From IMG/VR virus record IMGVR_UViG_3300044701_000916, positions 1-23,454 of that record: a stretch of DNA of 23,454 nucleotides; one strand, written 5' to 3'. Both the position numbers and the translations under genes were made by a program. The notes under the pieces are model-generated. The model searched no databases. It had not been told where the DNA came from and saw only the letters and a program-made list of their open reading frames with translations. Below are positions 1,418 to 21,968 of this stretch, in pieces; within the stretch, counting starts at the first letter, position 1; the number at the start of each line of letters is the position of its first letter. This DNA comes from a virus.

Positions 1418-4400
1418 ATGTCTAATGTTGACCCTCGTTTGGAGTTGGCGCGGCAAATAGCCGCCACTAGGCGGCCCGTGGTGGCCGCTAATACGCCTGT
1501 CGGCCCTAAGACGACTGGTCCTAGACCTTCACAAATGTCGCCTGAGACACGCCAGTTGCAGTCTCAGGTTGAGGACGCTACGACTGTGGCGTTGCGCCAG
1601 TACCCGAATCTTAGTGAGCAGATTAAGGCTGCGTCTCAGGGTCAGCCGCAGGCTACTGGCATCAAGGGGATGTTTGGCAAGTTGTTGTCATCTACTCCTG
1701 CGAAGATTGCTTTGCAGCCTCTTATTGTTTTGGACACGGGTCGCCGTGCCGTTATTTCAACGGCACGCGAAATGGTTGACTTGTTGGATACGGACCCGAA
1801 TACGAAGGCGTCGATTTCGGATTTTGTGGCGCAAACCAAGGACCCGATGTTTGGGTTTGGTACTGCTTTCCCGATGAAGGGGAACTGGGGTAGGTTCACT
1901 GGGTTTGTTGGGGATGTGGCGCTTGACCCGTTGACGTATGCGACGTTGGGTGTCGGTAAGGCGGCGCAGGGTGTTGCTGGCCGTATTGCTTTGGCTGGCA
2001 AGTATTTGGATAAGTTTGGTGACGCCGCCAAGGCTGCTTCTATTGCTCAACGCGGCAAGGCCGCTTTGAGCGCAGATGAGATTGCAAAACTTGGTTTGAA
2101 TCGTTCTGGCATCTACATGTTTGGCACTAAGGTTCGTGTGCCGATGACTGGTGCTATTGGCGAAAGTATGCTTAGTGGTGTCACTAGGGCGCGTATCGGT
2201 TTTACCAATACGCGTTTTGGTTCAACATTACAAAAAGGGTTTATGGGGCTTGGTGGTGATGGCAACAAGTCTCTTAGGGATATCCGTTTGGCTTTGGCTA
2301 GGGGCGAGCAGTTGCCTGACAATATGGCTGTTGATGCAGGTATCCGTATTGTTAATAGTGAGAACTCTCGCCGTGCCGCTGCGAAGATGGCGAGTGATGC
2401 TGTGCGTCGCCGTATGGCGCAGGAGTTGTCGACTGTTGGTAGGGAAAATCTCGAGTCTTACCGGAATGTGGCGTACAAGTGGCTTGAGGGTACTGCGGTT
2501 CCGCAGACCGCTCAAGAGGTTGCGTTCTTTGAACGTTTCAAAACTTTGTTCAGCGATTTGTGGGACGATGTTGATTCCGATTTCCGTCGCCTGACTCCTG
2601 ATAGCGATGGTATGAATCGTGTTAAGGAGTATTTCCCGTGGGTGATGACCGATGCCGCCAAAGAGGCGACAACGGATATGCAGACTCCTTGGGTTAAGAA
2701 TCTGATGTCGACGTTGGCTCCGAACCCGTTGGACCGTGTTGGTTCGTTCCGTTCACGTGGACTTAAAGAGGGTGCAGAGTTTCTGTGGACATTGGATGAC
2801 AACGGTAAGCAGATTCCTTACATCTTGAAGTCAACAGATTTGAATGTTGACCGTATCAACCAGATTTCTCGTGGTGCTCTCGGTATCGATTTCTTTGAGA
2901 CTGATATCGAGCGCGCATTGTTTAGTTACGCTAATTCGTATTCGCAACAGAAGGGTCTGTTGGCGATGTATGACGAGTTGTCGAAGTCTGGCGTGTTGCG
3001 AGAGATGTCGCGCCGTGCTGTGATTGATGAAGAAGCGGCGTTGGCTGTTTCTGCTGCGGCGGATAATGCGGTGCGTAGTGTTGTGGCTGGGTTGGGTTCT
3101 GCCTCTAAGCGTCTTGAGGACGCGTTTCGACTTGTGTCTAAGCGTGCTGAGGTTGAGGTTAAGCGTTTGGCCACTGCGGCTGATGATGCCGCTAAGGGTT
3201 TGGTTCTTGCCGAGAATGCTGCTGGTGATGTGGCGCAGACTGGGTTGTTGTCGCAGGCATTGGATGCCGCGACTATTGTGTCAACACTCAGGGACGAGAT
3301 TGATGGCCTGAAGGGTTCGCTGGATTTCTTGTTTGATGAGGTTCCGCCTGAGGTTGGGGCGTTGTACGACAAGTACGATGACTTGTCGAAGTCTTTGGGT
3401 TCTTTGACTGATGAGATTAATGCTTTGCAGGCCGAGCGTGTGACGCTAGAGCAGGGTATTGCCAGTCCGATGACGGCTGATGTCCTCACAAGCCTGCAGA
3501 GGCGGTTTAACGAGGCGTCTTCTGCTCTTAAGGATGCTGCTACTAACCACCAGTTCTTCCTTGAGTTGAACAGCGTATTGCGTTCACGGTTTGATGACAT
3601 TATCGATGGCACAACTCCGAAGGGGTTGGGGCGTGTCGGGGCAATCATCAAGGGTTCTCAAAGGGCGTTGCCTGCGAAGGAGGGTGCGGCCAAGTCGGTT
3701 GAGGATTTTGCTGAGGCTCCGGGTGTTTTCCAGAAGTGGGCCAAGTCCAAGGACGGCCCGCTTGAAGGGCAGGAATGGTTTGCTAAGACCCAAGGGTTTA
3801 TTGGCAACAAGAACCTGAACAAGACCGGTATTTCTAGGTTGTCTTACAAGGGTGTGTTGGAGAGTGTTGTTCGTGCGGCTCCGACGCATCAGAATGGTAT
3901 TGAACTGATTCAGTCTGCCGTGTACATGTTGGCACGCGACTTGAAGTTCCACGGCGCAGACAATGCGGTATTGGCCCCTGTTCGTGAAGCGTTGATTCAG
4001 GACCTTGACAAGGTTGCTAAGGTTGTTGGTTTGGTCGAGAATCGTGGTGCTGCGATTCTCAGTGACGCACAGTTGTCTGCGCTTAAAACTGAAATAGATA
4101 CTAACTATGTGGCGTTGAACAATCTGTACGACATCAGAAGTTACCGTCTTGACATGGAAGAGGCTTTGAAGCAGGCCGAAAATTTTGCTTCTATTCGTGG
4201 CGCAACTGCTGTGCCTGCTGAAGACGATTTTGTTTTCTTCTCTGACGTAGCCCAGAACTATATTAATGGTCTTTACGATGCCAATGGCGATTTTCCTTCT
4301 TATGCAGAAATTGCTATGGCGATGCGTGGGACTGTTGACTCGATGTCTGAAAGTACTGTGCTTGGTCACGGCAACAAGACTTACGGCATCTACGACATCC

Positions 4401-7400
4401 CAGACCTTGAGAAGTTGGTTAACTCCAAGGAACTTCTTCTCAACAAGGCTGTCGATGGCAGAATCCCCGGAGGCCTGAGGGGTCTTGATGTCAACAAGTT
4501 GATTGAAAACATTGGGCCTGCTGTTGGGGATTTGGCTGACAGGCTTGCCCAGTACACGTTGGCTTCTGAGGTTCAGCGGCGCTTCACCGCACTTGGCAAG
4601 GAACTTGCCATGTTCGGTTTGGCGCCGACAGAAGAAATGTATTCGATTGTGATGCGTCGTGTTGGCGAAGAGTTCTTGAACGTCACAATGGCACGCGAGT
4701 CTGCTGTGCTTGCTGCTCGTGGCGAGATGGACAAGATTCGCGCCGCTGTGATGATGGACATTGGCGCTAAGGGTAATTGGGCTGCGACATTCACCAAGAT
4801 GTTGGAGGAGGCGTACGCTGGACCTAATGGTTCTGCGCTTGAAGAAATCCTTGGCCCGATTGTGCAGTTCACGCCCGATGCACCTCGCATGAAATCGAAG
4901 TATGCGGCTATCAAGGCTAAGTCTGGTCGTGCCGAGTATTTGGATGAGTCGAAGAAGTTTGCTAAGGAGATGCAGAAGGCTCTTGGCGAAGAGGTTGATA
5001 ACAAGATTACTTTTGCTGAAACAAAGAAACTGTTGGCACGTTTGGCTGATACGGAGAATCCGTTGACGCCTGACGATTTTGCTGACGTTATTGAACAGGC
5101 TGACGTAGAGAAGTTCCGCACCAAAGCAATCCAGTTGCTTGACGCAGACAAGGCAACTAGCACCCCCACTAGGGACTTTATTAACGAGGAATGGTCTGAG
5201 TGGTTTGAGGCTTCGTTCCCCGGACGCAAGTTCAGTATTGCGTCAGCCGAGCAGCAGGCTCGACTGTCGCCAGTCACATCTGAGAAGCGTATGCGCATTT
5301 TCTTCAACGAACTGTTGGGTGGACATTACCGTTCAGAGGCTTCGTATCTGGAGAAGGTTGGGCGCAACCGTTGGTCGCGCAAGGGGTTTGTTTCTAAGAT
5401 TGCAAACAAGTCTCCTAGTGGTGAGTATATTGCTGTTCAGGTTCAGGGTTCTTTGCAGACTGAACTGTCTGTGTTGGGTGAGCGTATTGGTCATCTTCAC
5501 AGGATGATTGACCCGTCTGCTGATTATCGTGCGTTTTTGAATGACCCGTTTGGTTTGGGTGGCGGTCCGTTGTCGACTGCTGATTTCCTTGAGTCTTTGG
5601 CGAAGCGTCTTGAGGATGATATTCGTGAGATTCCGAAGTCGGTGCGTACGCAGATTGGTAAGGCTGAGGCTGCTGCACCTAAGGCTGAGTCGGCCCGTGA
5701 TGCGTTGAAGCGTTCTGTGGAGTTGATGAACCCCAGAGGGTCTGGTGAGACTGCTAAAGATTACACTGCACGTGTTCAGGGTTTGTTGGATGAGATGGAC
5801 CCAACAAACGTTAGACCGTTTGTTGCGCCCACACGTGAAGAAGTTATTCAACCGTTTGTTGTGCCGCCTAAGAAGGCTAAGGAAAGTTACAAGGCGTATG
5901 AGGCTCGTGTCGAGCGGATGCAAAAGAATTGGGAACGCTCACAGGAACCTGTGTATGCAAGGAAAGTTAAGGAAGCGCAGGACGCTTGGCGTGCCAGCAT
6001 CGATGAGGAGATTGGTGGTCTAGCCAAGTTCTATGAGAAGCAGGCGAAGATGGCTGAGGACTTCGCTGAGGTTCGTGCGGTTCGCGCCGAACGCGACCGT
6101 CTGGTTAACAGCCCTCAGTATGTGATTGCTGAACGTGACAGGGATTTGACTCAGATGATTAAGGGTCTGTCGGATGTCAATGGTTGGGAGGCACGTCACC
6201 CTGTTACTGGTGAGCAGGGCTGGTTTATTCAGGCTGCAGACCCCGGTGTATCTTTTGAAGGGTTGTTGTCATCGACAACTGACCAGCGTCTCAGGCGTGA
6301 CCTGCTGGCTGCACAGCCGCAGATTCGTGTGATGCGACAGGTTAATGTTGACGAACTTGCCGGTGCGGAACTAGATGGCGTGTTTATGGTTTCTCCAGAC
6401 AAGTCTATGGTGTTGCCGTACACAAAGGATGAGGTGAATGCGCTTAGGAAGCGCATGAACGCTTCTAGGGCTGAGGTTCGTGATTTTGAGCGTGCCGGTG
6501 GCACAGCCGCTGATGGTGTCACCACCGAAAGGTATCTGTATATCCAGAATCTGAAGAAGGAAGTAGCAGATTACGACAATGGCAACTACACGTTTGTGAA
6601 GTTGGGTGCTTTCGACGGCAAGAAAAAGTATTCGATTGATGACCTGATTACTTTGGGGAACAATCCTAGGGGTGGTACTGCGGCCCCTGTCCGCAAGGCG
6701 CTGCCTGAATTGTTTGAGCGGTTTGGCTCTATCAAGGCGACGATGGTTGATGCGGAGTCGTTGGCGCAACGTAAGGTTGTTGCGGACATGTTGATGCAGA
6801 ACGGTGTCATTGACCGTCAGGTTTATCGCAGATTGACCACCGAGGGTGAGTCAATCAACTCTGTGTTGTCTTCCAAGATTTACAACGAGTCTGTTGGTGA
6901 AGTGACTGTTGAGTCTTTGATTGGCCCAGAGGCCACCAAGGCGCTTCGTGATGTTGATAAGCCTTTGACATTCACCAAGGAAGAATGGCTGGCGCTGTAT
7001 GAGCCTTTGGATGCGAAGCGCATGGGTGAGGTCGCTAGGCAAACTAGTGCTGCCAGCAAGCGTTTGGCTGAGTTTAAGGCTTTGCGTGACCGTGGACAGC
7101 AAACCGTCACCATCAATGGTGAACGGTTCGTTGTCGCTAAGGAGATTGAGAGCCTCACAGCAGAGTTGGATGGTTTGCGTACGCTTGCGAAGACTGGTTC
7201 GATTGCGCCGGGGCAGGCCCCTGTTGCTTTGCAGTCTGCGTTGGAGAAGATGGACCAGTTGTTTGCGCAGATTGGTGAGGATGCAATTGGCCAACCTAGG
7301 CGTCTAGCAAACCGTGTTGGTTCTATCAAGACGAACACTTTCGGTTCTTCTAGGGTTGGGGGCAAGGCGTTTAAGGATGCTAGGAATCGTGCGGTTGATG

Positions 7401-9868
7401 CGCGTTGGGAGAAGACTTCTAGTTTTGCGACGTTGAGCAAGGTTAAGGAGATTGACGCCAGCCCTGCGATGGCTAGGTTTAATCAGACTGAGACTGCCGC
7501 TAGTAATGCGGCGGCTGCTGCTGCTCAGGCGCGTCAGCATGCAATTGATTTGCGTTCCACGATTGCTCCACAAGAGCAGGACATCATGGAGATTATGCGC
7601 ATCGCTAGTAGGGATATCGAAACCTTCAGCAAGGAAGGTGTCGAGATTTTCAACGAGGTCAGCCGCATTGTTAAGGGTTTGGTCGACACCAGCCCTGATG
7701 GTGTTAAGACGTTGAATCTTCAGAACATTTCTCTCAGGATTCCTGAGACGGTTAAGGCTGCTGCTAGGGAGATTCGTTCACAGTATGTGTCCCCGGCGGA
7801 GCGTGATTTTGTTACGGCTATTGCTGGCACTAGTGTCCGCGAGGATTTGTATCGTGCGGCGATGGATGCGGCTAGAGCCAAGACTGCATTCTCTGCGTTT
7901 GAGGCTGTGGTTGCTGGCGATGTTAACCGCATTGATGAGATTGTGACGATTCTGAATCCTGCTAAGGGGCGTCAGGCGGCGTTGCGTAAGGGCAAGCCGC
8001 CGGTGTCGCCTACCGAGTTGCAGAATCCTGTTCTTGCACGCCAGTATTTGCTTAGCAAGATTGATGATGTCACTAAGCAGATTCAGTCGATTACTAAAAC
8101 TAGTCGTAAGCAGTTTGACGCAAAGTTTGCTGCGGTCATCAAGAATGTTGATGCCAAGGAAAAGAAGTTGGCTGAAGCGTTGGCTAGGTTTACGGAGATT
8201 CAGGGACGTTACGATTCGATTATCCCGAACTTGTATTCTGCTGAGGCTACAGCCGCTTACGCTGACACGTTTATTAAGCCTAGGATTGATGAACTGACCG
8301 ACATCCTGACGAGGGCGCAGGCTGTCGGTGTTGGTGCACGCAAGAAGATTGTGACGCCAGAAAACTATATGGACATTGTTGAGATTGTTGATGACTTTAA
8401 GACGGTCATGAATGACCTCGCTATTGCACCCGATGACCCAATTCAAAAGGCGTTCCTTGACGTTGTGAACGCTAATGCGGAGATGATGGGCCGTCTTGTG
8501 ACGGCGGGACAGTTGTCGTCCGAGTTTATGGGCACGGCTAACTTCACAAACTTTGAGCGTGTACTGTCTGAGGGTTATGCGTCTTTGGAGAAGGCTGGCC
8601 TCAAGGGTATTGAGGCTCCGGGTGAAGTTGTCGATTTCTTTGACAACATGCGGCGTTTGAAGGAGCCGATGTTGCAGCGTGAGGTGTTGAACTTCTTGCA
8701 GAAGTATACGAAGTTCTTCAAGTCGTATGCGACTCTGAGTCCGGGTTTCCATGTCCGTAACGCTATGTCGAACACGTTTGCTTTGGTTGCCGCTGGCGCG
8801 AACCCCGCTAGGTTCGCCAAGGGTCTGAGTGTGTATCGTTCAATGCGTGAGGCACTTGAGAGTGGTGTGACGTTGGAGCAATGGCTGGCTACGCTGCCTG
8901 AGGCGGAGCGTGCTGTCGCGGATGTTGCTGCAAGGTCTATGTTTGCTAGCGGTGGTGGTATTACCTCTGAGGCTTTCCGTGGCATGTCGAAACGCAACAA
9001 GGGTGTTCTTGGTGCGTTTGAGGACAACTTCTTGTTGTCGGGTTCACGTTCGATTGGTGGAAGGCTCGAGTCTTCGTCACGGTTCATTCTTGGTTATGAC
9101 AGTGCGTTGAATGGTTTGGATTTCAATCAGGCGTCGGCACGTGTGCGACGCTACATGGTTGACTATGAGGATGTTGGTGCGGCTGACGAAGTTATCCGTG
9201 TGATTATCCCGTTCTGGATGTGGACAAGCCGTGCACTGCCTGTCCACATGGTGAACCAGTGGCTTAACCCGAGGCCATATGCCATCTACCAGTCGTTCAA
9301 GCGCAACCTCACAGCGGACGATGAGGGGCAGATTACTCCTAGTTGGATTACGGAGCAGGGTGGTTTCCGTGTTAGTGGTAACACGTATTTGATGCCTGAC
9401 CTTGGGTTTAACAGGTTGGGTCAGCAGGTTGCCCAGTTGGGTGATTTGCCTAGGTTGCTGTCGCAGGCCAACCCGCTTATCAGGCTTCCGATTGAGTTGG
9501 CTGGTAACAGGAAACTGTACACGGGGCAAGAGTTTAAGGATGCGCCTGTTGAGGTGTCTGGTGGCGTCGCAGCGTTGCTGCAGCCGCTGTTGCAGATTGC
9601 AGGATATGGGCAGACCAGTCCTGAGGGTAAGCAGTTTGTTGATGAGAAGGCGCTGTATGCGTTGCAGAACCTTGTGCCGTTCCTTGCGCAGGGTGAGCGT
9701 TTGTTGCCGTCGACTGAGGGCGGTCAGGAGAAGCAGTTGCAGAATGTGCTTTCATACTTTGGTTCACCGACACGTACAGTTCCGGAAAGCCAGCAGCAGG
9801 GCGAGTTGTATTCACGCCTGAGGGCGTTGCAGGATATCACTAATCAAGGAAAGGCTATGGAGGGCTGA
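1418..9868 (+). CDS. Giant (2816 aa) virion/ejection-type protein with LPD38-like C-terminus
   Basis: A single open frame of 8451 bases starts at ATG 1418, with only a weak upstream purine tract, and is 36% of the window. Near residues 160-200 is a Gly/Ala-rich segment (GDVALDPLTYATLG), and near 398-416 a YFPWVMT motif. Long Ala/Glu/Lys/Arg-rich stretches around 530-720, 1320-1430, 1900-2080 and 2190-2300 look like coiled coil. Near 2425-2640 is a C-terminal domain with the pattern FFKSYATLSPGFHVRNAMSN, then an aromatic hydrophobic patch (VIRVIIPFWMWTSRALP). This pattern resembles the large polyvalent-protein-associated domain LPD38 of giant phage proteins; the assignment is from memory. Such proteins are packaged in the capsid and enter the host with DNA. 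I saw no clear catalytic motif. The stop overlaps the next ATG. A minor head or tail protein is possible. Confidence 0.85.
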   Translation: MSNVDPRLELARQIAATRRPVVAANTPVGPKTTGPRPSQMSPETRQLQSQVEDATTVALRQYPNLSEQIKAASQGQPQATGIKGMFGKLLSSTPAKIALQPLIVLDTGRRAVISTAREMVDLLDTDPNTKASISDFVAQTKDPMFGFGTAFPMKGNWGRFTGFVGDVALDPLTYATLGVGKAAQGVAGRIALAGKYLDKFGDAAKAASIAQRGKAALSADEIAKLGLNRSGIYMFGTKVRVPMTGAIGESMLSGVTRARIGFTNTRFGSTLQKGFMGLGGDGNKSLRDIRLALARGEQLPDNMAVDAGIRIVNSENSRRAAAKMASDAVRRRMAQELSTVGRENLESYRNVAYKWLEGTAVPQTAQEVAFFERFKTLFSDLWDDVDSDFRRLTPDSDGMNRVKEYFPWVMTDAAKEATTDMQTPWVKNLMSTLAPNPLDRVGSFRSRGLKEGAEFLWTLDDNGKQIPYILKSTDLNVDRINQISRGALGIDFFETDIERALFSYANSYSQQKGLLAMYDELSKSGVLREMSRRAVIDEEAALAVSAAADNAVRSVVAGLGSASKRLEDAFRLVSKRAEVEVKRLATAADDAAKGLVLAENAAGDVAQTGLLSQALDAATIVSTLRDEIDGLKGSLDFLFDEVPPEVGALYDKYDDLSKSLGSLTDEINALQAERVTLEQGIASPMTADVLTSLQRRFNEASSALKDAATNHQFFLELNSVLRSRFDDIIDGTTPKGLGRVGAIIKGSQRALPAKEGAAKSVEDFAEAPGVFQKWAKSKDGPLEGQEWFAKTQGFIGNKNLNKTGISRLSYKGVLESVVRAAPTHQNGIELIQSAVYMLARDLKFHGADNAVLAPVREALIQDLDKVAKVVGLVENRGAAILSDAQLSALKTEIDTNYVALNNLYDIRSYRLDMEEALKQAENFASIRGATAVPAEDDFVFFSDVAQNYINGLYDANGDFPSYAEIAMAMRGTVDSMSESTVLGHGNKTYGIYDIPDLEKLVNSKELLLNKAVDGRIPGGLRGLDVNKLIENIGPAVGDLADRLAQYTLASEVQRRFTALGKELAMFGLAPTEEMYSIVMRRVGEEFLNVTMARESAVLAARGEMDKIRAAVMMDIGAKGNWAATFTKMLEEAYAGPNGSALEEILGPIVQFTPDAPRMKSKYAAIKAKSGRAEYLDESKKFAKEMQKALGEEVDNKITFAETKKLLARLADTENPLTPDDFADVIEQADVEKFRTKAIQLLDADKATSTPTRDFINEEWSEWFEASFPGRKFSIASAEQQARLSPVTSEKRMRIFFNELLGGHYRSEASYLEKVGRNRWSRKGFVSKIANKSPSGEYIAVQVQGSLQTELSVLGERIGHLHRMIDPSADYRAFLNDPFGLGGGPLSTADFLESLAKRLEDDIREIPKSVRTQIGKAEAAAPKAESARDALKRSVELMNPRGSGETAKDYTARVQGLLDEMDPTNVRPFVAPTREEVIQPFVVPPKKAKESYKAYEARVERMQKNWERSQEPVYARKVKEAQDAWRASIDEEIGGLAKFYEKQAKMAEDFAEVRAVRAERDRLVNSPQYVIAERDRDLTQMIKGLSDVNGWEARHPVTGEQGWFIQAADPGVSFEGLLSSTTDQRLRRDLLAAQPQIRVMRQVNVDELAGAELDGVFMVSPDKSMVLPYTKDEVNALRKRMNASRAEVRDFERAGGTAADGVTTERYLYIQNLKKEVADYDNGNYTFVKLGAFDGKKKYSIDDLITLGNNPRGGTAAPVRKALPELFERFGSIKATMVDAESLAQRKVVADMLMQNGVIDRQVYRRLTTEGESINSVLSSKIYNESVGEVTVESLIGPEATKALRDVDKPLTFTKEEWLALYEPLDAKRMGEVARQTSAASKRLAEFKALRDRGQQTVTINGERFVVAKEIESLTAELDGLRTLAKTGSIAPGQAPVALQSALEKMDQLFAQIGEDAIGQPRRLANRVGSIKTNTFGSSRVGGKAFKDARNRAVDARWEKTSSFATLSKVKEIDASPAMARFNQTETAASNAAAAAAQARQHAIDLRSTIAPQEQDIMEIMRIASRDIETFSKEGVEIFNEVSRIVKGLVDTSPDGVKTLNLQNISLRIPETVKAAAREIRSQYVSPAERDFVTAIAGTSVREDLYRAAMDAARAKTAFSAFEAVVAGDVNRIDEIVTILNPAKGRQAALRKGKPPVSPTELQNPVLARQYLLSKIDDVTKQIQSITKTSRKQFDAKFAAVIKNVDAKEKKLAEALARFTEIQGRYDSIIPNLYSAEATAAYADTFIKPRIDELTDILTRAQAVGVGARKKIVTPENYMDIVEIVDDFKTVMNDLAIAPDDPIQKAFLDVVNANAEMMGRLVTAGQLSSEFMGTANFTNFERVLSEGYASLEKAGLKGIEAPGEVVDFFDNMRRLKEPMLQREVLNFLQKYTKFFKSYATLSPGFHVRNAMSNTFALVAAGANPARFAKGLSVYRSMREALESGVTLEQWLATLPEAERAVADVAARSMFASGGGITSEAFRGMSKRNKGVLGAFEDNFLLSGSRSIGGRLESSSRFILGYDSALNGLDFNQASARVRRYMVDYEDVGAADEVIRVIIPFWMWTSRALPVHMVNQWLNPRPYAIYQSFKRNLTADDEGQITPSWITEQGGFRVSGNTYLMPDLGFNRLGQQVAQLGDLPRLLSQANPLIRLPIELAGNRKLYTGQEFKDAPVEVSGGVAALLQPLLQIAGYGQTSPEGKQFVDEKALYALQNLVPFLAQGERLLPSTEGGQEKQLQNVLSYFGSPTRTVPESQQQGELYSRLRALQDITNQGKAMEG

Positions 9869-12493: not shown

Positions 12494-12837
12494 AACTTCA
12501 CAACCTCCAGTGACCTGACCTGCGAGTCGTCTTTGAATGCGACACCGTTCAACCCGTCCAGAATCGACTTCGCGTAGTTGTCGATGTCGCCCCTGAGTGG
12601 GGAGACAGGTCTGTCGGTTTTGTATTCGCTGATGGCTACTGTGAATGTGTCTTTGTCAAGAACTATCTGGATGGCGATGGGGGATTCGCCATACCAGTAG
12701 TTCCTGTTCCACCCTGCGGCGACAGCGTTCTCAAAGATGTGTGTTGCTTTGGGCGTGTAGGCACGACCGTAGCGTGTCATTCTTGGGCGCTGTTTCGCTT
12801 TGGGTTTCAGTTTGTATCGCTGTGTGTGTTTACGCAC
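12490..12837 (-). CDS. RusA-like Holliday junction resolvase
   Basis: A 115-aa protein that probably cuts four-way DNA junctions during recombination or before packaging. The family signature is clear: RGDIDNYAKSILDGLNG followed by FKDDSQV, giving the metal-binding acids Asp84, Asp86, Asp94 and Asp103/104, with Lys90. The N-terminal KAKQRPRM and GRAYTPKAT segments are the usual basic stretch and first strand. I chose GTG at 12837, which has GAAGG six bases upstream and overlaps the primase stop by eight bases; a TTG at 12852 would add five residues. Length is close to typical RusA (about 120 aa). Neighbours are primase, helicase and nucleases, so it belongs to the replication and recombination set. 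Confidence 0.9.
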   Translation of the reverse strand: MRKHTQRYKLKPKAKQRPRMTRYGRAYTPKATHIFENAVAAGWNRNYWYGESPIAIQIVLDKDTFTVAISEYKTDRPVSPLRGDIDNYAKSILDGLNGVAFKDDSQVRSLEVVKL

Positions 12838-13753
12838 CGTAGACCTTCGCAATCATTCTGTTGATTTCCGTATCGGGGTCAGGCCGCAGATGGTACTTAC
12901 CCCAACGCAAGTCGGCTGACTTGACAACCTGCACCGCCTCGGGCGGAGACAGGTTGTTGTCGCGGCATTGCAACGCAATCTTCCACAAACTGAGCGAACG
13001 GTCTGCACCGTTCTTCGGTCCGTCTCTCCAAATTACGTACGCCATACCACCAGCCTTATGCACAAGAGACATTATGTCACTAGACACAGGCCCGTCAGCG
13101 TACTCGTACTGAGGAACCACAGGCGGTTTATACAGACTTGCAAGAACCTCAAGTTGTTCAGGCTCCGAACGGTTTTTGATGGCGTGGTTCACGAAGACCC
13201 CCAACGACAACGGGTTGCCAGTCTCGTCAATCATGTACCTGACATGGACATCGTTGTAGTTGTGGTCTGCTGGCAGGCCACCGAAAGCGTTCGGGTATGG
13301 CAACCTGACATAGTTACCGAACCCCGCACCAACGTGTTCCTGCTTCGGGTTCACTTCCTTAGCCGGATAGTCGATGGCTTGATGTGCCGCCAGAAACGCG
13401 CGACGCATCGTTGCGGCTGTGACGCTTTTGGTTGCGAACACCCACACGTGGTAGCCCTTGCGTGTCTTCTCAACCCAAGCAGTCACCTGCTTGATGCGGA
13501 ACGCTGTGCTCAGGTTGAACGCCGCATCCATGTCATCGACATCGATATCGGAGCATCCCCAAACGCAGCGTGCCTCGCCGCGCATCGGAACCACAGGGTA
13601 GACGCCAATCAGTTCAGCGCCAGCGAGATGGTTGCGGAACTTGTCGATTGTGACCATTTCCCGTTTGCATCCGCCTTCCCACGTGCCGTGGGCATCGCCA
13701 CGACCACGGAACAGGGTCATGTAGTCACCGATGAGTTCATCATTGTTAATCAT
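12830..13753 (-). CDS. AEP-superfamily primase (TOTE-type)
   Basis: A 307-aa protein likely to make primers for phage replication. Motifs of archaeo-eukaryotic primases are visible in order: VWGCSDIDVDD with the metal-binding Asp69 and Asp71, TRKGYHVWVFA with His102, and KEVNPKQ followed by GNYVRLPYP. This spacing resembles primase domains annotated as TOTE conflict-system primase in phages. Residues 225-307 are a helical C-terminal part (ending LRPDPDTEINRMIAKVYG) like PriCT segments. There is no fused helicase; the DnaB-like ATPase is encoded separately upstream, with a microprotein between them. The start ATG has AAGG five bases upstream. Polymerase activity in addition to priming is possible, since no DNA polymerase is in the window. 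Confidence 0.85.
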   Translation of the reverse strand: MINNDELIGDYMTLFRGRGDAHGTWEGGCKREMVTIDKFRNHLAGAELIGVYPVVPMRGEARCVWGCSDIDVDDMDAAFNLSTAFRIKQVTAWVEKTRKGYHVWVFATKSVTAATMRRAFLAAHQAIDYPAKEVNPKQEHVGAGFGNYVRLPYPNAFGGLPADHNYNDVHVRYMIDETGNPLSLGVFVNHAIKNRSEPEQLEVLASLYKPPVVPQYEYADGPVSSDIMSLVHKAGGMAYVIWRDGPKNGADRSLSLWKIALQCRDNNLSPPEAVQVVKSADLRWGKYHLRPDPDTEINRMIAKVYGA

Positions 13754-18205: not shown

Positions 18206-18421
18206 CTAAATGTTTGAGGGTGAAATGTAACGGGCATCAACATGAATACCCAGATACGCAATCATGTGGCGCGGAACGTGATACCACGTTTCGCGTGTCT
18301 TGGAACGGTCATAACCGATTATCTCGACATCGATGTTCACGGTGTCGCAATCGAATGCGTCCCACCCGAGGATACGAATGAATCCTCGGGCGGTCAACAT
18401 CTCATCTTTATTGGCGGGCAT
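18206..18421 (-). CDS. 71-aa alpha/beta protein, function unknown
   Basis: A 71-aa protein starting at ATG 18421, with GAGG six bases upstream. The in-frame ATGs at 18436 and 18433 lie deeper in the amidotransferase-like gene. The product is strand-rich (GFIRILGWDAFDCDTVNID, then YHVPRHMIAYLGIHVDAR), a compact small domain of unknown family. It overlaps the end of the amidotransferase-like gene by 14 bases, so it is translated from the same mRNA. Confidence 0.78.
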   Translation of the reverse strand: MPANKDEMLTARGFIRILGWDAFDCDTVNIDVEIIGYDRSKTRETWYHVPRHMIAYLGIHVDARYISPSNI

Positions 18422-19355
18422 CGATGACCTCATCATTCTCGTTGAAGTAAATCAAATCCTTGAGTTCGTTACCAGTGATTTTGCGCATCACAGGAACCTC
18501 GCTCGGCTTGGTCATCATGTTGCACGCACACTTGGTGTTCGGTTCCTGACACCACATACAGTATTCGCACGTTGGGCAAGACAACGGGTCTTCCATATCG
18601 AAGTCGTAAATCTCGGGTGTCTCACACACGGGACACGTCACCTCGTACAGATTCCAGTAGCCCTCCTCCTCAGCCCACTCGTCTTCAGTGAACTCGTACG
18701 GAGACTGGTTGTCTTTCGTTGTGGTCACATAGCCACCCCAACCCGATGTGTACGTCGAACCGTAACTAGAGTAACTATAGGTGTTGCCACCCCAACGGTA
18801 CTTGTAGGAGTTGTTCGACCACCACACACCGTCCTCGTCCCAATGACCATCTTTCTCATTGAGAATGTAGAACGGTTTGACAGCCCACTCGTCGGTGGTC
18901 AGCACCACAAGTTTGGAACCAGCCGCCCACTTCTCAAGTGAGGCGAACGTGTCCGGCTCATCAAGCGCATACACGCCACCGATAGACGGCAGATACGTGT
19001 CAGCGAAGATGCGTGTGTCCGAACGTGGGTCACCCTTGGGGACTTGGATTGGCAACATACCGTTGTGACCGACAACCGTTCGCGGGTCGCCACCGACACG
19101 GAACGGGTGACAGTTGTCGACGTTCGTCGTGCCGTGTGTCGTGATACGGGAGTGGAACAAGGCGTGACCGTGGTGACGTTTCCGCACCTCAAGGAACTGG
19201 TCGAGCACCTGCTCAAAGTCCATACCGTGACCTGTGACAATCTTGTTGCCACAGACCACGGCAAAACCGTGACCGTCGTCGTTGTTCCACGCACCTGTAC
19301 GCAGATGTTCGATGTTTGCTGTTGTGCCCTCAGGCATGAATGTCAAAATACACAT
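18408..19355 (-). CDS. Class II glutamine-amidotransferase-like protein with zinc-ribbon tail
   Basis: A 315-aa protein whose first 160 residues match the Ntn-hydrolase glutaminase fold that releases ammonia from glutamine. Cys2, exposed after Met removal, is the expected nucleophile (MCILTFMPEG). Further motifs are HSRITTHG (68-75), CHPF (82-85), VGHNGML (95-101) and SDTRIFAD (112-119). Residues 180-220 are Tyr/Ser/Gly-rich and probably flexible. Eight cysteines at 241, 244, 260, 263, 266, 269, 276 and 278 form a two-zinc ribbon. No synthetase domain is fused; the adjacent amidoligase-like gene is the natural partner. AGAGG lies eight bases upstream of the ATG, and a palindrome begins 36 bases upstream. 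Ammonia transfer and substrate are inferred; a proteolytic or non-catalytic role remains possible. Confidence 0.87.
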   Translation of the reverse strand: MCILTFMPEGTTANIEHLRTGAWNNDDGHGFAVVCGNKIVTGHGMDFEQVLDQFLEVRKRHHGHALFHSRITTHGTTNVDNCHPFRVGGDPRTVVGHNGMLPIQVPKGDPRSDTRIFADTYLPSIGGVYALDEPDTFASLEKWAAGSKLVVLTTDEWAVKPFYILNEKDGHWDEDGVWWSNNSYKYRWGGNTYSYSSYGSTYTSGWGGYVTTTKDNQSPYEFTEDEWAEEEGYWNLYEVTCPVCETPEIYDFDMEDPLSCPTCEYCMWCQEPNTKCACNMMTKPSEVPVMRKITGNELKDLIYFNENDEVIDARQ

Positions 19356-19373
19356 TGGGTGTACCTCTTTCTA

Positions 19374-19387
19374 TTGTTGATTGTTGA
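19374..19387 (-). repeat. CAA-rich tandem 7-mer in the amidotransferase leader
   Basis: The plus strand reads TTGTTGA twice in tandem (19374-19380, 19381-19387), i.e. TCAACAA repeats in the minus-strand mRNA just before AGAGG and the ATG at 19355. CAA-rich unstructured leaders can favour ribosome loading. A related 7-mer array precedes the amidoligase gene. Confidence 0.6.
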
Positions 19388-19390
19388 TAG

Positions 19391-19405
19391 TTAGCGGAAC
19401 GCTAA
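19391..19405. promoter_or_regulatory. Palindromic operator-like site A (TTAGCG-GAA-CGCTAA)
   Basis: A perfect 6+3+6 inverted repeat that starts 36 bases upstream of the amidotransferase ATG, in the only gap between this gene and the amidoligase gene. Three similar sites precede other minus-strand genes. A homodimer-binding operator is the simplest reading; a 5' UTR hairpin is possible. Confidence 0.7.
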
Positions 19406-19419
19406 GTTTTGGCAGATGA

Positions 19420-20877
19420 TTAGAACAGGTTGTCACTAGAGGACACCATGAACTGGTTGGTCACGTCTTCGACGTCATCAGCGTCAGCAATCTGCATCGG
19501 CGGGGCGACAGACACAGCGTCAGTCTCCACAATCAGATTGTGCAACTGCTGGTAGCGCGGCTGGAACGACACCCACTCTGCGAAGTCCGCAAAGTTGAAA
19601 CGGTGACGCATCTTCTCGACACGCCTGTCGCCAGTGTAACGGACAGCAGCCTCAGCGAACTGCAAGTACGCCTGCACACGCTCAACACGCATCGTGGAAC
19701 GGAACATACGCAACTCGACAGTCGCATCGTTGAGCAGGTTCACTGCGTACGTGCGGCTGTACTGCGAGGCACCACGCCTAGCGCAAGCGAAAGCCTCATT
19801 CAGATAACGCTTGCTCATATGACCGTAGTGAACGTTGCGTCCTGCGATACGGGTGATGGACTTGACGTTCCCATAGATGAAGTACATAAACGCCATCAAA
19901 TGCGGAGACGCATTGAACCGACCGTGGTCAGGCTTCGTGTAGAACGCCTTACGGTTGACGTGAATGTGAATCCCAATCTCACGAGAACCGACATCCCAAC
20001 CACGCATACCTTTCGACTGGGCTTCACGAATCAACTGCCAGTCGAAGTGTTCCATAAACGCATCCAGCGTGTGCGGTTGTGTCACCAACTCAAACCCGTT
20101 GTTGATTGAACCGTCCTGCTTCAGCATCAGATGGTTGTCCTCGTATGCGTTACGGAACAGTTCGGCAATCTCGCGGGTCGGGTAGTCGCCCTCGATGTTC
20201 TCCATCTCGAACTCGAGACCCATCGCAATCTGGTTGGCGAACTCTGGGTTGCGCCAGTAGTTGCTCACCAAATGCAAACCGCCGTCCGTCACCGTATGCA
20301 AGTACAGCGGATGGAACTTCGTGGAGTACGACAGAACCATCTCGCCAAGACACGAGTCATCGCAGTCACACTCATCGCCCTCAGCGAGAAGCGTGTCGCA
20401 ATACTCGCAACTGTACGTACAGTTCTCGTAGCACCCGTAGCACCAAGTCTGGTTGCTCACCTCGTAAGAGTCGCCGTCCTGCACTGGACCGTTGCAGTTG
20501 CCGCACGTATCTGCATACCACGCACAGTAGTTACACAACGTGACACCGTTGCGTCGACGCCACGTCGAAACGCGACCCAACGCACGATTCAGCACGACGC
20601 TACCCTCGCACCATTCGCATTCCGCATCGACGTGCGAATCGTGAATCTGAATCTCGTTACGATTCTCGTCATACCAGTCGACCAGCGACGGTTCGACACG
20701 ATTGACAGGCACACGGACGTACGTGCCACGCTCGTCGGACCACACGTGACCGTATTCAGTGACGCACCGAAACTCCGGATACCAACGCCCATCGAACTGG
20801 CATTCGACGGCATCACCGTACAGAATCGGCACGACCTCACTGGGGTCGACCTGCACCTGTGTAGATGTATCTGACAT
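19420..20877 (-). CDS. Amidoligase-like enzyme with SH3-like N-terminus and Cys-rich middle
   Basis: A 485-aa protein. Residues 15-65 look like a small SH3/Tudor-like barrel (GDAVECQFDGRWYP ... VRVPVNRVEP). Residues 87-176 hold 14 cysteines in CxxC and CxC pairs (CEWCEG, CNYC, CGNC, CYGC, CEYC, CDC), several zinc ribbons. Residues 215-415 match the glutamine-synthetase-like amidoligase family: MGLEFEMEN (Glu222, Glu224), KQDGSINNGFELVTQP (253-268), GIHIHVNR (302-309) and a distal AVNLLNDATVELRMFRST (378-395). This family joins amines or ammonia to carboxyl groups using ATP. The neighbouring class II glutaminase could supply ammonia, a pairing known for phage amidoligases. GAAAGG lies seven bases upstream of the ATG, and palindrome B lies beyond. 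Substrate unknown: cell-wall peptide or host protein are options. Confidence 0.87.
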   Translation of the reverse strand: MSDTSTQVQVDPSEVVPILYGDAVECQFDGRWYPEFRCVTEYGHVWSDERGTYVRVPVNRVEPSLVDWYDENRNEIQIHDSHVDAECEWCEGSVVLNRALGRVSTWRRRNGVTLCNYCAWYADTCGNCNGPVQDGDSYEVSNQTWCYGCYENCTYSCEYCDTLLAEGDECDCDDSCLGEMVLSYSTKFHPLYLHTVTDGGLHLVSNYWRNPEFANQIAMGLEFEMENIEGDYPTREIAELFRNAYEDNHLMLKQDGSINNGFELVTQPHTLDAFMEHFDWQLIREAQSKGMRGWDVGSREIGIHIHVNRKAFYTKPDHGRFNASPHLMAFMYFIYGNVKSITRIAGRNVHYGHMSKRYLNEAFACARRGASQYSRTYAVNLLNDATVELRMFRSTMRVERVQAYLQFAEAAVRYTGDRRVEKMRHRFNFADFAEWVSFQPRYQQLHNLIVETDAVSVAPPMQIADADDVEDVTNQFMVSSSDNLF

Positions 20878-20927: not shown

Positions 20928-20979
20928 GGTGGCACCGAAACTTAGCGCACCGCTAAGAACGCTAAGAAACGATGCCACC
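20928..20979. promoter_or_regulatory. Palindromic operator-like site B with nested outer arms
   Basis: The inner palindrome CTTAGCG-CAC-CGCTAAG (20941-20957) is followed by a third half-site CGCTAAG (20960-20966). Outer arms GGTGGCACCG (20928-20937) and CGATGCCACC (20970-20979) pair in nine of ten positions, so the whole could fold as a long hairpin in the amidoligase leader. CCACC-CATT-GGTGG (20910-20923) adds a second small hairpin. Flanks CGAAA and AAACGA match site C. Either a cooperative operator or a structured leader; both are consistent with the sequence. Confidence 0.68.
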
Positions 20980-20985
20980 TCACCA

Positions 20986-21192
20986 TCAACGGTCAGAATC
21001 CATCTGACGGACATAATCGTTTGTGATGTTCACAAGCAACCAACCGAACACGCCCAACAAAACCCAAGCGTAATCCGGCACAGCACCCTCACCCTCAAGC
21101 CCACCAACCGATGCCAACGTTGCGATGAACGCGACAGCGGTCAGCCAACGCTTGAACCGCAACCACTTGCGACGGTCACGAACGTACAACAT
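20986..21192 (-). CDS. 68-aa two-TM membrane protein
   Basis: A 68-aa protein with a very basic N-terminus (MLYVRDRRKWLRFKRW), a first TM helix (LTAVAFIATLASVGGL), a short acidic loop (EGEGAVPDY) and a second TM helix (AWVLLGVFGWLLVNI). The ATG at 21192 shares a base with the upstream stop (TGATG). Two TM helices with a short loop and charged ends are typical of small holins and of other phage inner-membrane proteins. No lysis gene is adjacent, so holin is only a possibility. Confidence 0.78.
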   Translation of the reverse strand: MLYVRDRRKWLRFKRWLTAVAFIATLASVGGLEGEGAVPDYAWVLLGVFGWLLVNITNDYVRQMDSDR

Positions 21193-21404
21193 CACAAATC
21201 ACCACCCTCAACAATAAGCGGCAAAACAAAACCGTTGTCGTCCTCAACGAACCTCAGCAACGGGTCGTCCAACCCGTTCACCAACTCGACACACGCATCA
21301 ACCTTGCGTGGGTCATCGAACGTGCGATACAACACACACTCGCCATCGTACATTTGCAGCCACACCGACAAACCCTCGGTGAAAGCACCAGCAATAGACA
21401 ACAC
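21192..21404 (-). CDS. 70-aa protein, function unknown
   Basis: Likely start GTG 21404, because AGGAG lies seven bases upstream; the in-frame ATG at 21410 is only one base from that site and would be poorly used. The product (70 aa, or 72 from the ATG) is alpha/beta with an acidic middle (YRTFDDPRKVDACVELVNG) and a hydrophobic end (GFVLPLIVEGGD). It is translated together with the two-TM protein downstream. No family recognised. Confidence 0.72.
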   Translation of the reverse strand: MLSIAGAFTEGLSVWLQMYDGECVLYRTFDDPRKVDACVELVNGLDDPLLRFVEDDNGFVLPLIVEGGDL

Positions 21405-21431
21405 AACCATACTCCTTTTTCTGTTACGAAA

Positions 21432-21448
21432 CTTAGCGGAACGCTAAG
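21432..21448. promoter_or_regulatory. Palindromic operator-like site C (CTTAGCG-GAA-CGCTAAG)
   Basis: A perfect 7+3+7 inverted repeat, 27 bases upstream of the GTG at 21404. The flanks CGAAA and AAACGA are shared with site B, so conservation reaches beyond the arms. It sits between a terminator-like hairpin and the gene it would control. Confidence 0.72.
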
Positions 21449-21532: not shown

Positions 21533-21931
21533 CTAGGCGAACTTCTTCAGTTCGTTGATGAGCGACGCAACCTGAGCCTTCGTGAGACCCTTGGCAATGC
21601 TCTCCGCCTTCTTCTTCGCAGAGAAACGCGACTTCTCAGCCGTCTCACGACCGCTCACCTCGTCCAACGTGAAGTACGCCGCATCCGACGCCTTCTCGTA
21701 CGTTGCGAAGCACCGCTTCGCACGAGAGATTTCCACTTCCCACGTCGAGGACTTCTTGCCCGTCTTGTGCGCGAGCGCCACCGCGAGGCGACGTGCCGCA
21801 CCGTGCGGTGCGTTCTCCGTGAGTTCGTGGACTGCCTTGCCGAACTCCCACAAGCGTGCGCTTGCGTTCTCGACTGCGCTCTTGTAGGCGAGCGCCGCCT
21901 TGATTGCGTTGGTGTTGTTCTCCGTCTTCAT
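21533..21931 (-). CDS. 132-aa basic helical protein, function unknown
   Basis: A 132-aa, Lys/Ala-rich, mostly helical protein (ALAYKSAVENASARLWEFGK; later SAKKKAESIAKGLTKAQVA). It has an AAGGAGAG site about ten bases before the ATG, and palindrome D a further short distance upstream. Basic helices and lack of signal or TM segments suggest nucleic-acid or protein binding inside the cell. It is bounded by a noncoding region before and a hairpin after it, so it is probably transcribed alone. No known family recognised. Confidence 0.78.
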   Translation of the reverse strand: MKTENNTNAIKAALAYKSAVENASARLWEFGKAVHELTENAPHGAARRLAVALAHKTGKKSSTWEVEISRAKRCFATYEKASDAAYFTLDEVSGRETAEKSRFSAKKKAESIAKGLTKAQVASLINELKKFA

Positions 21932-21953: not shown

Positions 21954-21968
21954 TTAGCGGGTCGCTAA
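21954..21968. promoter_or_regulatory. Palindromic operator-like site D (TTAGCG-GGT-CGCTAA)
   Basis: A perfect 6+3+6 inverted repeat starting 23 bases upstream of the 132-aa gene ATG. Arms are identical to sites A-C while the spacer differs (GGT), which favours selection on the arms. Confidence 0.7.

Follow-up and report, generated by a model that had tools for sequence, protein, structure and literature searches.

According to papers citing Iyer 2009 and Hardies 2013, a multi-gene phage module consisting of a COOH-NH2 ligase, Amidoligase_2, a class II glutamine amidotransferase (GATase), ATP-grasp and GGCT has been predicted to modify peptidoglycan. The five-gene module of phages phiEco32, LUZ24, tf, UFV-P2 and RIO-1 resembles, in having an Amidoligase_2 ligase and a class II GATase, a two-gene pair that we analysed in the IMG/VR virus record IMGVR_UViG_3300044701_000916, whose 23,454 bases, probably a fragment, are referred to below as the window. 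Both genes of the pair lie on the minus strand, where a ligase open reading frame (ORF) of 485 aa (19420–20877) was followed, after 64 bases, by a GATase ORF of 315 aa (18408–19355). The two genes probably encode one heteromeric glutamine- and ATP-dependent amidotransferase, and this joint action of an amidoligase and a class II glutaminase was supported by sequence profiles, predicted folds, invariant catalytic residues and the near-obligate adjacency of the genes. The same evidence upheld the two enzyme identities proposed in a first-pass annotation of the window, which had also placed the two adjacent ORFs and their motifs correctly.

Relation to described systems

The type of pair is already known, as its relatives are annotated in OM43 phages and in mycobacteriophage Marvin. 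The Methylophilales (OM43) phages MEP401 and MEP402 encode the same pair in the same order (gp05/06 and gp06/07), annotated as PF12224 and GATase (PMC10580990), but their GATase lacks the 8-Cys module described below. In the Marvin cluster (gp105/gp106; LittleLaf 108/109), an adjacent ligase and GATase occur in that order, the GATase is 44% identical to that of the window over residues 1–184, and the same 8-Cys GATase motif and a Cys-rich ligase N-terminus are present; the Marvin-cluster ligase differs in its shorter N-terminus and an extra C-terminal part, and belongs to a different phage.

The fold of the ligase is common to YbdK, GmaS, glutamine synthetase (GS) and PafA/Dop, for which we know of neither a zinc N-terminus nor a dedicated class II GATase partner. 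Similarly, the N-terminal nucleophile (Ntn) domains of GlmS, PurF and EgtC have the fold and the glutamine-site residues of the GATase, which differs from them by its separate GS-fold ligase partner and its C-terminal zinc-type module. MurT/GatD, which amidates D-iGlu of the cell wall, is likewise a two-subunit glutamine- and ATP-dependent amidotransferase, and its ligase subunit MurT carries a Cys4 zinc ribbon of unknown role (PMC6113224). However, MurT/GatD combines a Mur-ligase fold with a class I GATase, in contrast to the GS fold and class II GATase found here, making the two systems analogous rather than homologous.

Profiles built from the pair scored 129–225 bits with the Marvin-cluster and MEP proteins, the training set having included a Marvin-cluster relative but not MEP, compared with 12–19 bits for the module proteins of UFV-P2. 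The UFV-P2 ligase, at 12 bits, had no Cys-rich N-terminus, and the UFV-P2 GATase was a remote relative. GGCT (PF06094) was found in none of 28 records, which included the fragmentary window, relatives of 23–108 kb and Marvin- and MEP-type phages, while the control StenR_269 was positive. The RimK-type ATP-grasp (PF08443 serving as the probe for the ATP-grasp gene) was also absent from the 28 records, with a positive control and one weak match below the cut-off in the L101 record. The COOH-NH2 ligase profile (PF14395) matched only the control UFV-P2 and missed StenR_269, which has a GS-like gene, so that the sensitivity of this probe was possibly limited. The low UFV-P2 scores together with the missing module genes point to the two-gene pair as a distinct subtype. 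The pair and the five-gene module draw on the same enzyme families, and the prediction of wall modification may yet hold for both. What appears to be new, judging from a literature search of limited scope that returned no match, is the zinc-bearing two-gene subtype, together with its occurrence on plasmids and conjugative-type elements and as twin pairs in Nocardia.

The two proteins and their zinc-type modules

To characterise the proteins, AlphaFold2 models were built on alignments of 45 ligase and 44 GATase relatives, and residue conservation was counted in 130 compared pairs. By profile and predicted structure, ORF 19420–20877 is a GS-fold amidoligase (Amidoligase_2). The match to PF12224 (Amidoligase_2) was marginal, at 22.3 bits against a curated cut-off of 22 (24.8 bits in frame), and the protein also matched phrog_2443 (‘amidoligase’), phrog_16683 and phrog_22302. 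The motifs GLEFEME, GIHIHVNR and TVELR occupied residues 220–226, 302–309 and 386–390, respectively. Residues ~197–453 were modelled confidently as a GS fold with Z scores of 11.4–11.8 for YbdK and ~10–11 for GS and GmaS; plant glutamate-cysteine ligase, like YbdK, was among the best fold matches, and PafA/Dop were among the known proteins sharing the fold. A Pup-system target, prompted by the PafA/Dop-like fold, was considered and set aside, as Methylophilales and Clostridioides, whose phages contain relatives too, are not known to have Pup. Within the catalytic domain (residues ~212–450; 19528–20244, minus strand), E222, E224, E263 and H304 were present in 130 of 130 pairs and E388 and R390 in 129, the remaining row being cut at that point. 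By analogy, these active-site residues may be assigned to ATP or metal.

The ligase N-terminus (residues 1–80; 20638–20877, minus strand) had been read as SH3-like. This region was modelled with a predicted local distance difference test score (pLDDT) mostly below 50; two near relatives matched it at 61% and 31% identity, while it was mostly absent from the others and was the least constrained part of the protein, with a ratio of nonsynonymous to synonymous substitution rates (dN/dS) of 0.42 compared to 0.11 in the catalytic domain. The lack of a confident model and the weak constraint left the SH3-like reading unsupported.

The downstream ORF 18408–19355 is a predicted class II Ntn glutaminase. 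It matched phrog_25883 strongly (E 4e-42), but its similarity to class II GATase/GlmS in Pfam and NCBIfam was weak, the GATase_4 profile giving 13.2 bits, below the curated Pfam cut-off of 23. Because GATase_4 missed the protein while phrog_25883, the fold and the catalytic residues fit, we regard it as a divergent relative of the family and not as a Pfam-certified member. Residues 1–187 (18795–19355, minus strand) were modelled confidently as an Ntn fold, with Z scores of ~15 (14–15) for GlmS and ~14 (13.7–13.9) for EgtC, with PurF sharing the fold. Cys2 and the motifs HSRITTHG (residues 68–75) and GHNG (96–99) were all recognised; C2, R70, N98 and D113 were invariant in the 130 pairs, and G99 was changed once. 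Both genes were under purifying selection when compared to the nearest divergent relative, dN/dS being ~0.11 in the ligase domain and 0.06 in the GATase domain.

Both proteins carry Cys-rich regions, with the 14 and 8 cysteines counted earlier. In the ligase, this region (residues 87–176; 20350–20619, minus strand) contained C125, C128, C146 and C149, each at least 90% conserved; residues ~111–170 were modelled at pLDDT ~77–89, and LIM-like sequence matches were weak (best E 0.014). In the GATase, the zinc-type module (residues 239–280; 18516–18641, minus strand) followed the pattern CxxC-CxxCxxCxxC-CxC, with all eight cysteines, located within residues 241–278, at least 90% conserved in the alignment of 44 relatives. 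The conserved CxxC pairs supported the predicted zinc-type domains on both proteins. The complete 8-Cys motif occurred in 61 of 71 viral and 62 of 68 bacterial GATases, the MEP phages being among the exceptions, and this prevalence makes the module a feature of the subtype. The zinc had also been taken as a pointer to a nucleoprotein or ribosomal target, which was not supported: since the ligase subunit of the wall enzyme MurT/GatD is zinc-ribboned as well, zinc alone cannot tell such targets apart.

Pairing, spread and gene context

A scan of viral contigs with a GATase profile gave 260 relatives, of which 80 were kept, and 75 distinct viral records. The ligase gene was located directly upstream of the GATase gene in 68 of the 75 by script, and in 69 when L009, whose pair was overlooked by the distance rule of the script, was included by eye. 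In L031 and L099 the GATase lay near the end of the available piece, and L008 represented the larger module. In bacterial genomes, the ligase was found beside the GATase at 47 of 49 loci, the GATase start often overlapping the ligase end. The distance matrices of the two proteins were correlated (r of 0.89 for viral and 0.95 for bacterial pairs), with none of 1000 permutations reaching as high a value. Several phages (L015, L032, L044, L071, L072, L075 and L076) had a second ligase-like ORF upstream of the pair, at a distance of a few hundred bases. A conserved small neighbour that might serve as a peptide substrate was sought and none was found: across unrelated phages only the ligase and the GATase were common, the remaining shared neighbour genes being the backbone of one phage group.

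The pair was seen in mycobacteriophages and marine phages, and three of four mycobacterial plasmid records with a GATase match had the ligase annotated alongside, the fourth being a partial match. On an M. paragordonae plasmid (L153, 11428–13082), IS200/IS605 transposase and TnpB genes were located close to the ligase. Bacterial carriers included Nocardia, Kutzneria, Amycolatopsis, Actinoplanes, Virgisporangium and others. Among 118 sampled Nocardia genomes the GATase was patchily distributed, occurring in 39 and mostly in exactly two copies. All 24 tandem loci kept the order copy 1 to copy 2, and the copies, 57–59% identical with catalytic residues intact in both, formed two separate groups in both proteins. 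The two groups and the kept order indicate a single ancient duplication of the entire pair in Nocardia.

In five Nocardia contigs, read for ~40 kb on either side, ligase 1, GATase 1, ligase 2, GATase 2 and a conserved 240-aa protein were arranged in this order on one strand, followed by Prim-Pol or DUF4192 in some contigs, and then by a ParB-like protein and SSB. Pfam confirmed SSB, Prim-Pol and DUF4192, and gave no match for the ParB-like protein, whose name is our own reading. A TrwC-like relaxase was present in four of the five contigs and a tyrosine integrase on the opposite side in two; Pfam also identified a TrwC relaxase next to the pair in Labedaea, and a Virgisporangium locus contained genes for a coupling protein, VirB4/TraG, PrgI, TrbL and ArdC. 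The gene content indicates that the actinobacterial carriers are probably integrative or conjugative elements. The occurrence of the same pair in phages, plasmids and conjugative-type elements suggests that it serves mobile DNA in general. The 240-aa companion, which contains Cys residues and had no Pfam match, was found at 34 of 43 bacterial loci (L129, 5447–6169, and 33 others), on 37 plasmid records, all from Actinobacteria by genus name, and in mycobacteriophage Sparky.

The exact palindrome TTAGCGNNNCGCTAA occurred four times in the window, a number reached in none of 100 shuffles. The first-pass annotation had assigned a palindrome of its own to each gene of the pair. Exact copies were indeed located upstream of the GATase start (TTAGCGGAACGCTAA, 19391–19405) and of the ligase start (TTAGCGCACCGCTAA, 20942–20956, where the leader RNA fold gave a z of −4.0); two further copies lay upstream of ORF 21192–21410 (21433–21447) and ORF 21533–21931 (21954–21968), and the near relative L024 had six copies of TTAGCGNNNCGCTAA ahead of several genes. 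These additional copies indicate that the palindrome belongs to the lineage and is not specific to the pair, and TTAGCGNNNCGCTAA was found in none of the other lineages fetched. It resembles an operator or leader element restricted to this lineage.

Farther downstream on the strand of the pair, the window encodes an archaeo-eukaryotic primase (AEP)-type primase, a DnaB-like helicase, a PD-(D/E)XK nuclease, RusA and a sigma region 4 protein. The AEP-type primase (12830–13753, minus strand) matched the TOTE conflict-system primase domain. A small ORF at 18206–18436 (minus strand), with one near relative at 87% identity and none found elsewhere, overlapped the end of the GATase gene. On the plus strand, an ORF of 2816 aa (1418–9868), directly followed by a VanY-type peptidase gene, possibly encodes a virion-associated multidomain protein. 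In relatives, a WhiB-family gene was located downstream of the pair (L062, 7706–8059; the cluster is common to 18 loci), which hints at actinobacterial hosts. An Rfam scan of the window returned zero matches, and promoter and terminator scans gave yields close to those of shuffles.

Proposed reaction and possible targets

In the proposed reaction, Cys2 of the GATase, acting as the nucleophile, would free ammonia from glutamine, and the ammonia would be handed to the GS-fold ligase subunit, which would use ATP to convert a carboxylate through an acyl phosphate to a primary amide as the product. The zinc-type modules may join the subunits or dock the substrate. Several observations weigh against such a complex: L021 and L098 contain a GATase with no recognised ligase in the available piece, the gene order of the pair is reversed in L087, and a correlation of distances would arise from shared descent as well, which makes r alone weak evidence of physical contact. 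In addition, the glutamine-site residues fit a gamma-glutamyl hydrolase such as EgtC as well as a glutaminase, and the EgtC fold match was nearly as good as that of GlmS. An alternative is a ligase that attaches gamma-glutamyl in the manner of EgtA/GshA, combined with an Ntn hydrolase that subsequently strips a glutamyl group in the manner of EgtC; this arrangement would accommodate the similarity and the presence of YbdK and plant glutamate-cysteine ligase among the top ligase folds. We consider it improbable, as the sequence matches were to GlmS and PurF profiles and not to EgtC, and the strict one-to-one pairing and the duplication of the whole pair suit a stable complex better. Even less credence is given to auxiliary nitrogen metabolism, in which the pair would supply the infected cell with a free amide metabolite. 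This role was proposed for phage-ZRK32, with growth data for a phage with GATase, amidoligase, glutathione synthase and GGCT genes (PMC10945688), but that gene set is larger, conserved zinc-type modules would be unusual for a free-metabolite enzyme, and the presence of the pair on conjugative-type elements is left unexplained.

For the predicted heteromeric amidotransferase, we lean slightly, and tentatively, toward a cytoplasmic peptidic carboxylate of the peptidoglycan-precursor type as the target. The pair could possibly be a reduced phage peptidoglycan module, the altered stem-peptide linkages giving the infected cell a wall protected against superinfecting phages or, if the idea is extended, against other elements. 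The enzyme families are the same as in the five-gene module, all hosts seen have peptidoglycan, and MurT/GatD provides a precedent for a wall amidotransferase built in this way. However, GGCT and the RimK-type ATP-grasp were absent and the COOH-NH2 ligase was not found in the 28 records, the module members are distant, as seen with the UFV-P2 ligase, and the Nocardia pair sits among DNA-establishment genes and not wall genes. Close behind the wall precursor, though rather doubtful in its own right, comes another host macromolecule, hit early in establishment. The complex would then amidate a carboxylate of a host protein or other macromolecule recognised by its zinc-type modules and blunt the response to incoming DNA, an unlikely scenario that is nonetheless consistent with the sharing of the pair among phages, plasmids and relaxase-bearing elements, with SSB, ParB-like, Prim-Pol and ArdC neighbours, and with the conservation of zinc-type modules on both partners. 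Plasmid leading regions are enriched for SSBs and anti-restriction genes, many of their families being uncharacterised (PMC11541004); amidoligases are not mentioned in that paper. Against this scenario, PADLOC, a library of defence and not counter-defence, returned zero matches, and the zinc-type modules would equally suit subunit assembly.

A broader proposal, which we hold to be distinctly unlikely in full, is that the pair is a zinc-bearing two-subunit amidotransferase of mobile DNA, common to phages, plasmids and actinobacterial integrative/conjugative-type elements, which soon after the entry of DNA would amidate a particular host macromolecule, disabling defence or remodelling the host, with the Nocardia duplicates acting on two sites. 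If this were true, one enzyme chemistry would be common to tailed phages and conjugative-type elements, and the prediction of phage wall modification would be widened. Marvin-cluster phages of M. smegmatis and the Nocardia elements offer cultured test systems. The identity of the substrate would settle the 2009 prediction on the role of phage amidoligases and could bring to light a wall or post-translational modification for which mobile DNA is responsible.

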